Below are positions 55,061 to 60,500 of a stretch of DNA of 64,000 bases, in pieces. The stretch is from Streptomyces sp. MUM 178J (GTDB lineage: Bacteria > Actinomycetota > Actinomycetes > Streptomycetales > Streptomycetaceae): NCBI RefSeq assembly GCF_022414575.1, contig NZ_JADWYQ010000001.1, positions 186,001 through 250,000 on the forward strand. Direction: 5' to 3'. Numbering within the stretch: position 1 is the stretch's first letter; the number at the start of each line of letters is the position of its first letter. A program made the translations under genes and the position numbers. The notes beneath the pieces are model-generated. The model had not been told where the DNA came from. It searched no databases and saw only the letters and a program-made list of their open reading frames with translations.

Positions 55061-57655
<2,595 letters not shown>

Positions 57656-57708
57656 CTGCGGTTTCTCCTCCTCGACTGCGGACCATAACCTCCATGACTC
57701 ATCCAGCA

Positions 57709-57737
57709 TACATAAAGTTGAGTCTATTCAGCTCAAG
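57709..57737 (-). promoter_or_regulatory. clpB promoter with HspR-binding HAIR element
   Basis: On the minus strand: CTTGAGC-N7-ACTCAAC at 57717-57737, 12 of 14 bases matching the HspR inverted repeat CTTGAGT-N7-ACTCAAG. The -35 TTGAGC overlaps its first half, with TATGTA (57709-57714) 16 bases on as -10. Repression by HspR (encoded at 60659-61114) is expected from Streptomyces work on clpB. Confidence 0.85.
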
Positions 57738-57764
57738 GATCGCGAAGAAGGTAGGTTCCGGGAC

Positions 57765-58178
57765 ATGGCGATCGACCTGCACAACCCCGACGCGTCGTAC
57801 CTCGGCTTCTGGCGCGAGAACCATGTCTGCACACTGACCACCCCGCGCCCCGACGGCACTCCCCATGTGGTGCCGGTGGGGGCGACGTACGACCCCGAGG
57901 GCGGCGAGCGGGGCATCGCACGGGTGATCGCCGACAAGCACAGCCGCAAGGTCTCCCATGTGCTGGCCGCGGGCCCGGAGGGGGCGCGGGTGGCGCTCTG
58001 CCAGGTCAGCAGGGCCCGCTGGGCGACGCTGGAGGGACGGGCGACGGTCCGCACGGATCCGGAGTCGGTCGCCGACGCGGTGGCGCGCTACACGGAGCGC
58101 TACGGGCGCGTCCCGAGACCCAACCCGGACCGGGTGGTCATCGAGATCGCCCTCACCAGGGCCATGGGCCGCGTCTGA
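57765..58178 (+). CDS. PPOX-class F420/FMN-dependent protein
   Basis: 137 residues. Split-barrel flavin/F420-binding fold: [73 protein letters not shown]. Members reduce small molecules or bind cofactor. Divergent from clpB and sharing its promoter region, so HspR might influence it too. Confidence 0.85.
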
Positions 58179-58425: not shown

Positions 58426-58743
58426 TCAGGCACTGCGGGGGGTGGCGGTGGTGTCGGCCTCGACGAGCTGGTGGTCGCGCGCGTCGAGATTGACGAAAAT
58501 CATGCCGTACCGGATGGCACAGCGGACGGGCTGTGGAGCGCCCCGGGGCCGGCGCAGGCAACGGTATGCACGGACGTCCTCGTCCTCTTCGCGTGCCACG
58601 ACGATCGGCTCTCCGAAGAGGGTGACCATCAACGAGTCGCCACGGTGGGGAATGGCCGTGACGAGATCGATGAAATGCCACCCCGAGCGGTAGGCCGTTG
58701 CCATCTCACGCCGGAAGACCCGGTCGTCCGGGGGCACGGTCAT
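58426..58743 (-). CDS. Rieske-like miniprotein lacking histidine ligands
   Basis: 105 residues. The order WHFIDLVTAIPHRGDS-LMVTLFGEPIVVAREEDEDVRAY follows the N-terminal part of Rieske oxygenase domains. Where those have C-x-H then C-x-x-H, this has CLRRPRG and CAIR: both cysteines kept, both histidines replaced by arginine, with only 12 residues between the cysteines. A normal 2Fe-2S cluster is therefore unlikely. ATG overlaps the stop of the repeat-peptide gene (ATGA, 58740-58743), so it is translated with it. Could be a binding/chaperone partner, or hold a different metal. Fold assignment by eye. Confidence 0.6.
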   Translation of the reverse strand: MTVPPDDRVFRREMATAYRSGWHFIDLVTAIPHRGDSLMVTLFGEPIVVAREEDEDVRAYRCLRRPRGAPQPVRCAIRYGMIFVNLDARDHQLVEADTTATPRSA

Positions 58744-59063
58744 GCTTCGAGGGTGCCCGCGGCAAAGCCCCAAGAGGGCTCACCCTGGGCGGTCGCAGGA
58801 GCAACACCCCACGAAGGCTCGCCGGTGGCGGCCGCGGGAACGACGCCCCAGGAGGGCTCGCCTTCGGTCGCCGCGGGCGCCGCGCCCCACGAGGGCTCGC
58901 CCGGCAGGGCCGCGGGAGCGGTGCCCCAGGAGGGCTCGCCCTGAACGGCTGCCGTCACGTCGCCGACGGGGGAGCCGCCCCAGGAGGGCTCGCCGGAGGC
59001 CACCGCGCCGAACGCGGCCGCCGCCACGGCTAGAGCACATAGCGCACGAAGCTTCCAAGACAT
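58740..59063 (-). CDS. Repeat peptide precursor with six GEPSWG units
   Basis: 107 residues; ATG 59063 with AGGTGGAG ten bases upstream. The first ~23 residues look like a signal peptide (SWKLRALCALAVAAAAFGAVAS). The rest is six copies of GEPSWG: a first 18-residue unit, four of 13 residues (GEPSWG-xxPAxxx) and a last of 14. There is no cysteine after the leader and one Trp per unit. Regular short repeats with a single aromatic in each suggest a multi-core ribosomal peptide or a structural surface peptide. Coupled to the Rieske-like gene, divergent from a LuxR-type regulator. I do not recognise a described family. Confidence 0.8.
   Translation of the reverse strand: MSWKLRALCALAVAAAAFGAVASGEPSWGGSPVGDVTAAVQGEPSWGTAPAALPGEPSWGAAPAATEGEPSWGVVPAAATGEPSWGVAPATAQGEPSWGFAAGTLEA
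58767..58994 (-). repeat. Coding repeat array (GEPSWG codons, mostly 39-bp period)
   Basis: Six copies of an 18-bp segment coding GEPSWG, last at 58767-58784 and first at 58977-58994, spaced 39 bp except the first interval (54 bp). Codons vary between copies at third positions while the residues do not. Confidence 0.9.
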
Positions 59064-59189
59064 GGGAGATCTCCACCTCTTCAGATCATTCCTCCTCCCC
59101 CGCGCATTAGACGATGTCTCACTCCGAACGCTTGCACCAGCGACGGCAGGCATCATGTTCCTGTAATGCAGGAGCCTGAGGGGGTGCAT

Positions 59190-60215
59190 ATGACGTCGAT
59201 CGAGGGCGAATCCGGACACTCTCACCCGAGTGGCGAGCTGTGCGAGGCAGCCAAAGGCCTGTACACAACGGCCCTCCGGACGGGGAGAATCACCCGCTCA
59301 GAGGCAGAGGCGACCCCATGCCTGTTCGATCTCGCCCTGCTTCACCCGGACCCCGACGATGCACAGTGGCTCCGCCCGGTCCCTCCGACCACCGCGTTGA
59401 CACAGCTGATACACCCCATCGAGAGGGAGATCCAAGAGCGCAGACGCCGAACTGTGGCTCTCACCGACGCACTTGAGCCATTCATGGCCTTCAGCGCCCA
59501 GAACTCCACCGTCCCGCAAGGGATCACCGTGCTCGAGGGGCTCAACCGCATCAACACCACCCTCGATCAGGTCACCGCCGACTGTACGGAGGAGCTTCTC
59601 ACGGTCCAGCCCGGCAGCGGGCGTCAGCCGCATATTCTGGAGAAGGCGCTGCGCCGGGTCGAGCCGCTCATCGACCGGGGTGTCCGAATGCGAACGCTCT
59701 ATCAGCACACCGCGCGCCACCACCCGGCCACGCTGTCGTACATGGAGCAGGTCGGGCCTTCGGGCGTGGAGGTGCGGACGCTGGAGGAGATCATCGACCG
59801 GTTGATCATCGTCGACCGGAAAGTGGCCTTCATTCCGGCGAGCAGCGACCGGCTCTCCGCGCTGGAGCTTCGGCACAAGGGGATCGTCGAGTATCTCGTC
59901 GGGGTCTTCGAACAGTTCTGGCTGCACGGCATCCCGTGGGAGGAACAGATCTCGTACGGGCCGACGCTGGACGGCATCACCGGCGTCCAGCGCTCCATAG
60001 CGAAGCTGCTCGTCGAAGGGCACGTCGACGAGGCGATCGCCCGCCGCCTGGGGATGAACGTACGCACCTGCCGCGCCCATATCGCCAAGCTGGGCTCGGC
60101 GCTGGGCAGCGGCAGCAGAACGCAACTCGGCTATCTGATCGCGCAGTCGGGCATCCTCGAGCATGAGCAGGAGCGCTGCCCCCGGCTTCCCCGGATGGCG
60201 GCGCAGAACCAGTGA
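59190..60215 (+). CDS. LuxR-type HTH regulator with large N-terminal domain
   Basis: 341 residues from ATG 59190 (GAGGGGG upstream; ATG 59166 possible). N-terminal ~260 residues: helical segment (LCEAAKGLYTTALRTGRITRSEAEATPCLFDLALL, EREIQERRRRTVAL) then a PLD/TrmB-like part with GVRMRTLYQHTARHHPATLSYMEQV and KVAFIPASSDRLSALELRHKGIVEYLVGVFEQFW. C-terminal LuxR HTH (SIAKLLVEGHVDEAIARRLGMNVRTCRAHIAKLGSALGSGSRTQLGYLIAQSG). This type commonly regulates neighbouring peptide or small-molecule clusters in Streptomyces. Divergent (126 bases) from the GEPSWG operon, its likely target. Confidence 0.85.
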   Translation: MTSIEGESGHSHPSGELCEAAKGLYTTALRTGRITRSEAEATPCLFDLALLHPDPDDAQWLRPVPPTTALTQLIHPIEREIQERRRRTVALTDALEPFMAFSAQNSTVPQGITVLEGLNRINTTLDQVTADCTEELLTVQPGSGRQPHILEKALRRVEPLIDRGVRMRTLYQHTARHHPATLSYMEQVGPSGVEVRTLEEIIDRLIIVDRKVAFIPASSDRLSALELRHKGIVEYLVGVFEQFWLHGIPWEEQISYGPTLDGITGVQRSIAKLLVEGHVDEAIARRLGMNVRTCRAHIAKLGSALGSGSRTQLGYLIAQSGILEHEQERCPRLPRMAAQNQ

Positions 60216-60293: not shown

Positions 60294-60390
60294 GCTGAAC
60301 GGCTCCGGCAGCCCTTGGACCACCCGGGCTCCCAGACCGGCGCACACACGCCCGCACGGGGCGGCCTCGGCCCACGGCCTCGGCGGGCAC

Positions 60391-60446
60391 GGGCTGACGG
60401 GCTGACGGGCTGACGGGCTGACGGGCTGACGGGCTGACGGGCTGAC
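60391..60446. repeat. 8-bp tandem repeat (gggctgac), seven copies
   Basis: Seven exact copies in the convergent intergenic space. No spacer structure, so not CRISPR. Confidence 0.92.
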
Positions 60447-60500
60447 GGCAGGGTGCACGGGCGCACAGGCGCACAGGCGCACGGCCTTTCTGGAAGCAAA

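Follow-up and report, generated by a model that had tools for sequence, protein, structure and literature searches.

Organization of the locus and its secreted precursor

Positions 58426..60215 of the window (the whole 64-kb stretch of DNA that was analysed) contain a conserved three-gene unit, comprising genes for an exported 107-aa peptide, a 105-aa Rieske-like protein, and a divergently oriented 341-aa regulator. The unit is flanked on one side by clpB and a PPOX oxidoreductase (55061-58178), the latter identified via Pfam, and on the other side by hspR-dnaJ-grpE-dnaK; the names clpB and hspR-dnaJ-grpE-dnaK are presumptive, having been assigned from sequence and recall. A perfect 8-bp tandem repeat (ACGGGCTG, 7.5 copies) occupies positions 60389-60448, between the regulator and hspR. 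Conservation was assessed in a main set consisting of the best 80 of at least 488 relatives (79 Streptomyces and one Actinobacteria bacterium OV320). The divergent regulator adjoins the Rieske-like gene in 80/80 of these loci, and a peptide ORF with one or more cores lies directly upstream of the Rieske-like gene in 80/80 as well, in keeping with an earlier view, based on the window itself, that the three genes belong together. The peptide was also found in 47/47 loci of a second orthologue set in which both strands were read; as this set shares genomes with the main set (at least 15 loci come from main-set genomes, and L122 and L139 are one place), it is not independent of it.

The precursor is encoded on the minus strand (58740..59063, ATG start) and, as the preliminary description stated, carries six GEPSWG units, beginning at residues 24, 42, 55, 68, 81, and 94 (spacings of 18, 13, 13, 13, and 13 residues). 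Tandem Repeats Finder (TRF) reports a 39-nt period at 58767-58940 with 4.5 copies and 74% matches. Residues 1-23 (MSWKLRALCALAVAAAAFGAVAS; 58995..59063, minus strand) are predicted to form the N-terminal export signal that had been proposed, with a boundary placed by eye and by a hydropathy script. Comparison of arrays places the six EPSW core tetrapeptides, all on the minus strand, at 58980..58991, 58926..58937, 58887..58898, 58848..58859, 58809..58820, and 58770..58781. Neither Pfam nor NCBIfam contains a family for the peptide. When the criteria used for peptide searches were applied to the whole 64-kb window, the ORF at 59063..58740 was the only one returned; since it is the sole ORF meeting these criteria and relatives in the genus conserve the locus, the GEPSWG-repeat ORF is not a product of chance.

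Comparison of 81 arrays (window included), each with 1 to 7 core copies, was carried out using a search pattern that fixes Trp and D/E/N and leaves positions 2 and 3 free. Inside a given array the copies hardly differ over a stretch of exactly four residues, [D/E/N]-x-x-W, whereas their flanks drift. Within-array identities at positions -2 to +6 are 0.35, 0.41, 0.99, 1.00, 0.98, 1.00, 0.72, 0.33, and 0.28 (342 pairs), compared with 0.23, 0.26, 0.45, 0.29, 0.29, 1.00, 0.16, 0.18, and 0.17 between arrays; in other words, core positions 1-4 are 98-100% identical within arrays, whereas neighbouring positions reach 28-41% and the one that follows Trp 72%. Of the repeat unit as first described, the mostly 13-residue spacing stands, but what is conserved is the four-residue [DEN]xxW and not the 13-residue period. 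Such a core encloses 272 of the 277 Trp residues in the mature parts (summed from the core listing). The repeated word differs between Streptomyces species groups, the majority cores including EPSW, EPTW, DSGW, DTGW, DISW, DIGW, DIAW, EISW, DPSW, DPIW, DVGW, DLAW, DLGW, DSSW, DSTW, DSHW, DSYW, DSKW, DTVW, NSSW, and NTSW. EPSW is the majority core in 20 of 77 compared sequences, and so is a word common to members of a group. Two words are mixed in 8 of the 81 arrays (L010, L018, L022, L023, L027, L030, L045, and L059). The highest copy number met was ten, in the DSTW precursor of L124.

Codons vary from unit to unit as had been reported, with 26 third-position and no first- or second-position differences over all pairs of the six window units. 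Across 79 loci (L025 and the window left out), core codon differences inside arrays comprise 358 synonymous and 11 nonsynonymous changes, so selection, rather than fresh duplication, maintains the core word; the earlier suggestion of selection on the repeat as a motif thus gains support from the mostly synonymous nature of these differences. Signal-like N-termini, judged by eye, are kept while the rest of the precursor diverges.

The 105-aa protein (58426..58743, minus strand) begins within the stop codon region of the peptide gene, the TGA of which lies in an ATGA shared with the ATG of ORF 58743..58426, as originally observed. This geometry is retained in 65/80 main-set loci (64/79 counted, plus L025 by eye). 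Its resemblance to Rieske proteins, also noted earlier, is real although weak by sequence: the best match to solved Rieske oxygenases has E 2e-4 over residues 6-69, the Pfam Rieske match (E 0.02) is below cut-off, and the NCBIfam glycine betaine monooxygenase match (E 8e-8) is far below its cut-off. A structural model is of low confidence (pLDDT 69) and gives weak Foldseek matches, the best (E 0.17) to a Rieske oxygenase. With the Rieske domains of ring-hydroxylating oxygenases the protein shares the order of secondary elements and the sequence over residues 6-69, but it differs from these enzymes in lacking both the His ligands and a catalytic domain. In place of CxH and CxxH, C62-x-R64 and C75-x-x-R78 are invariant in 20 sequences. 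The first Cys is lost in L152 and L154, the only two divergent copies compared.

A Rieske-like query matched 210/246 Streptomyces genomes. When the ten weakest of these were re-searched, four held a divergent stand-alone copy (102-110 aa) and six only 414-551-aa frames; the latter are ordinary oxygenases, which leaves the stand-alone protein in 204/246 genomes of the genus. Matches outside the genus are all to longer frames (258-726 aa), and any match at all occurs in 14/61 genomes of the family and 34/246 of the class, genus members counted in. The window genome has one stand-alone copy, at the window locus only. Among the genomes searched, the Rieske-like protein was found in this genus only; it is strongly conserved and translationally coupled to the peptide.

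Between the divergent genes lies an inverted repeat, TCCTG-N5-CAGGA (59159..59173), which from its sequence pattern is a probable operator. In 76/80 loci the form TCNTG-N4..8-CAGGA occurs in the 900 nt that precede the Rieske-like gene, with a spacing of 5 in 31 and of 6 in 45; the exact form found here is expected by chance 0.07 times per window. We infer that the regulator binds this dyad.

Regulator architecture and co-variation with the core

The regulator (59190..60215, plus strand, ATG start, 341 aa) reads away from the peptide and Rieske-like genes, and its original designation as LuxR-type holds; an alternative 349-aa reading from ATG 59166 starts inside the conserved dyad 59159-59173. 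An AlphaFold2 model built with 91 sequences (pLDDT 90, pTM 0.67) comprises a winged helix, a long helix, a PLD-like domain (residues 107-250; 59508..59939, plus strand), and a LuxR-type helix-turn-helix (HTH; residues 265-320; 59982..60149, plus strand). Among solved structures, archaeal TrmBL2 and TrmB come closest to the winged helix, long helix, and PLD-like domain, and PLD-type nucleases to the sensor. The C-terminal GerE HTH was recognized by structural match, the Pfam GerE score (17.2 bits) being below the cut-off of 23.5. The catalytic motif of phospholipase D is HxKx4D. In the regulator, the His position (202) is occupied by I, P, V, F, T, or L in 87/91 sequences, the Lys position (204) has Arg in 73 of the 91 and retains Lys in 9, and the Asp (D209) is kept in 90/91. 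R168, R196, and W244 are invariant (91/91). Replacement of the His, together with these invariant residues, suggests that the modelled domain is a dead enzyme fold serving as a ligand sensor.

Distances between cores and between genes were compared over the 77 sequences that possess all compared genes, window included. Distances between cores are correlated with those between regulators (r 0.70; partial r 0.64, p 0.001, with the Rieske-like protein and PPOX taken into account), while correlations with the Rieske-like protein and PPOX are -0.07 and -0.03 once the regulator is accounted for. Partitioning the regulator, the partial Mantel r between core and PLD domain, given four other distances, is 0.67 (p 0.002, 499 permutations), compared with -0.13 for the winged helix plus coil, -0.07 for the LuxR HTH, -0.05 for PPOX, and -0.02 for the Rieske-like protein. 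Permutation of this kind removes phylogeny incompletely; over 49 representatives below 93% identity, the partial r for the PLD domain is 0.62. In a site-wise analysis of related pairs, 17 of the top 20 core-associated sites fall in the PLD-like domain, which accounts for 108/248 scored sites (p 1e-4). The word therefore co-varies with the PLD-like sensor only, and not with the DNA-binding domains, the Rieske-like protein, or PPOX. The Rieske-like protein was considered as a reader of the word and rejected, given a mean pairwise identity of 87% and no co-variation with the core.

Codon 136 (59595..59597, plus strand; Leu in the window) tracks core position 2: residue 136 is Leu with Pro2 in 34/34 sequences, Met with Ser2 in 20/20, and Val or Ile with Ile, Leu, Thr, or Val2 in 26/26, such that its class matches core position 2 in 80/80. 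When the PLD domain is left out of the tree, each of the two characters takes 7 steps, compared with at least 30 for shuffled labels. Site 136 was picked after inspection of the data and the rule derived from the main set, and it was therefore tested on 46 unused loci. Held-out orthologous loci obeyed it in 18/19 cases (L306 fails), although 4 of the 19 share >90% identity with sequences of the training set, and some lie close to one another. Of 27 paralogous loci, 9 obeyed the rule, 9 broke it, and the other 9 could not be scored; with 9/18 scorable loci right, the code is unsupported for distant paralogues and the rule is not a general one. Residue 153 shows apparent size compensation with core residue 3, being Ala with Gly3 in 14/14 and Gly with Thr3 in 15/15, and mixed with Ser3 (26 Ala, 11 Gly). 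In held-out orthologues Gly3 occurs with Ala in 5/5, and Thr3 with Gly in 3/5 (Ala in L164 and L165).

Related pairs and the Streptomyces coelicolor locus

Related regulators were scanned in 151 loci (170 non-duplicate homologues) outside the 80 main-set loci, a peptide being accepted if a secreted small ORF ended in [DEN]xxW plus 0-3 residues or repeated the same core. These criteria, which were fixed after the first examples had been inspected, returned 31 ORFs within 400 nt of a regulator and none in the 384 kb beyond (expected share near regulators approximately 0.25; p 1e-19). The 31 include four orthologues of the window locus (L213-L216) and one doubtful case (L258), and under such strict criteria most of the 170 homologues are without a detectable peptide. 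The same criteria returned none in 17 control loci (54 kb). Within the window genome, a second peptide-regulator pair (L089:3149-3331) has a single C-terminal copy (...EGDMGWQ, core DMGW) and lacks a Rieske-like gene. In other genera of the family, peptides end exactly at Trp (...DSIW in L223, ...DLIW in L198, ...DIVW in L295). Among loci from other families, 14 were inspected and 4, which belong to a single genus (f26, g55), have a clear peptide; the cores recorded are DTSW x2 in L317 and in L318, DSSW plus KSSW in L322, and DTTW x2 in L326.

These pairs bear on the preliminary description, which had likened the peptide, the Rieske-like protein, and a dedicated regulator to a compact natural-product or surface-peptide cassette and had named homologues lacking the partner gene as evidence against it. 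Such pairs without a Rieske-like gene exist (L089 and the SCO2686-type L349), so the cassette reading is not supported and an obligatory natural-product pair is rejected. Its statement that neither a transporter nor a peptide protease adjoins the genes holds. What is constant is peptide plus regulator, related regulators in other genera and one other family being found next to similar secreted peptides, in many cases with no Rieske-like gene. The co-translated Rieske-like protein would be a locus-specific accessory, with no place in the pheromone model set out below. The regulator looks like a receptor for the peptide rather than solely a pathway regulator.

Regulator paralogues also occur in runs. 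L255 and L264, from other Streptomycetaceae genera, have such runs with one secreted peptide nearby (DYAW and DFVW), and L180, L183, L348, and L351 have two to four tandem paralogues at the locus described here with only one peptide gene seen, an arrangement common in Streptomyces. The idea that each second tandem regulator has its own local peptide was discarded, none having been seen by eye in 32 loci with 3-kb flanks. The extra regulators could act as eavesdroppers or antagonists, or could serve to receive foreign words.

Published data permit a link to Streptomyces coelicolor. In this species, clpB and hspR are SCO3661 and SCO3668 (PMC2631018), and two LuxR proteins, SCO3665 (327 aa) and SCO3666 (394 aa), are recorded (PMC3282765). 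Genome G527 contains exact matches to both published SCO2686 primers, and from its Rieske-like gene onward the regulators are readable as 345, 327, and 394 aa, with a peptide ending ...SDTIWS. From the published tags and lengths, the primer matches, and the regulator order in G527, we infer that SCO3664 is the orthologue of the window regulator (58% identical). A Tn5 insertion in SCO3664 is reported among the mutants in which actinorhodin was raised >50-fold, and SCO2686 is among the listed down-modulators; in that study 12 of 16 complemented mutants were restored, a study-wide figure not specific to SCO3664 or SCO2686 (PMC6585502). The SCO2686-type locus L349 encodes a divergent secreted peptide (...DSTDDSQWG) and has no Rieske-like gene. 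Binding of ArgR in vitro upstream of SCO2686 has been reported (PMC3293853; for ArgR boxes see PMC5839063).

A probable peptide pheromone system

We propose, with a probability of roughly three in four, that the locus is a peptide pheromone system in which Trp-terminated tetrapeptides are released, re-imported, and bound by a TrmB-like/LuxR receptor. The precursor would be exported through its predicted signal peptide, and extracellular proteases would then cut out the [D/E/N]-x-x-W core, here EPSW, several per precursor, at the boundaries delimited by comparison of arrays. The tetrapeptide would be re-imported, probably via an oligopeptide ABC permease; eight SBP_bac_5 open frames were counted in the window genome from a reading of 10 rows. 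In the cytoplasm it would bind the catalytically dead PLD-like domain, to which the co-variation assigns specificity, and binding would alter regulator action at the conserved dyad and at other targets, among which the published phenotype of the presumed S. coelicolor orthologue would place antibiotic production. Group-specific words would be maintained by co-evolution of core and receptor pocket.

The export signal, the repeats, and the nearby regulator would equally suit a ribosomal natural product, antimicrobial or surface-bound, with repeats that raise yield and a regulator that controls or senses production, and the Rieske-like protein does resemble part of an oxygenase. No dedicated modification enzyme of the kind expected in a RiPP cluster, and no transporter or immunity gene, was seen, however, in the conserved unit between PPOX/clpB and hspR, and the Rieske-like protein lacks the ligands and the catalytic domain. 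The cores moreover co-vary with the sensor domain of the regulator only, and single-copy versions exist with the core at the extreme C-terminus. We consider this explanation improbable. A cis-acting role for the peptide is likewise unlikely, in which it would be a ligand for the regulator within the producing cell before or instead of export and its signal peptide would sense secretion or envelope state. Divergent pairing and sensor co-variation do not by themselves prove passage outside the cell, but the signal-like N-termini persist (by eye) as the remainder diverges, and homogenised multi-copy cores are best explained if they are cut apart.

Linkage and ancestry could also generate co-variation, the genes being adjacent, tandem repeats being prone to homogenisation, and Mantel permutations leaving some phylogeny; the peptide would then be structural or cell-wall associated, its repeats homogenised by recombination, and the regulator a bystander. 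The Rieske-like gene, however, overlaps or abuts the peptide gene and yet shows no co-variation given the regulator, synonymous sites of the cores are not homogenised, and unlinked paralogous pairs repeat the design in other genera and one other family, such that we regard this account as highly improbable.

The pheromone reading extends, in a broader form that we hold only slightly more probable than its negation, to a large family of private Trp-terminated tetrapeptide channels in Actinomycetes, often tandem in one secreted precursor and read by TrmB-like/LuxR receptors through a pocket code legible among orthologues of the window locus (Leu136 with Pro2; Met136 with Ser2; Val136 with Ile, Leu, Thr, or Val2; Ala or Gly153 with the size of residue 3). 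In S. coelicolor, two or more of these channels (regulators SCO3664 and SCO2686) would restrain actinorhodin, and synthetic tetrapeptides could then be a means of switching antibiotic production in selected species groups. If true, Streptomyces would possess a gene-encoded peptide hormone system with group-specific words, its specificity code would be open to probing with four-residue synthetic peptides, and, as with SCO3664 disruption and actinorhodin, a way to influence antibiotic production would be at hand. The system would also provide a function for one group of those LuxR-type regulators in these genomes that have no known signal. Among the papers listed in the literature searched, no description of the peptide-regulator family was found, which does not establish absence from print.

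To our knowledge, the PLD-like/TrmB-like receptor fold is not known as a peptide receptor. The regulator has the winged helix, coiled coil, and PLD-like effector domain of the TrmB family; it differs from the archaeal regulators TrmB and TrmBL2 in its extra C-terminal LuxR HTH and in its proposed ligand, a peptide and not a sugar. An acyl-homoserine-lactone domain is typical of LuxR, and in place of this domain of LuxR-type quorum-sensing receptors the regulator has a PLD-like sensor. Shared with the RRNPP systems of Firmicutes (Rap-Phr, NprR-NprX, PlcR-PapR, Rgg-SHP; features in part from PMC10075063) are a small secreted propeptide (export here being predicted from sequence) beside a cytosolic regulator, a short core that is often C-terminal, and words that co-vary with the receptor. 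In contrast to RRNPP, the receptor as modelled by AlphaFold2 has a TrmB-like/PLD-like sensor and LuxR HTH and no TPR domain, the precursor often carries 2-10 identical cores, the core is a Trp-terminated tetrapeptide, and the hosts are Actinomycetes. Yeast alpha-factor is released from one secreted precursor in which tandem identical signal units are separated by spacers, an arrangement shared by the multicopy precursor described here; the present system differs in being bacterial, in its four-residue core, and in its proposed cytosolic transcription-factor receptor. In its proposed function the system thus resembles RRNPP pheromones and the multicopy alpha-factor precursor, while by its putative receptor it would belong to neither.
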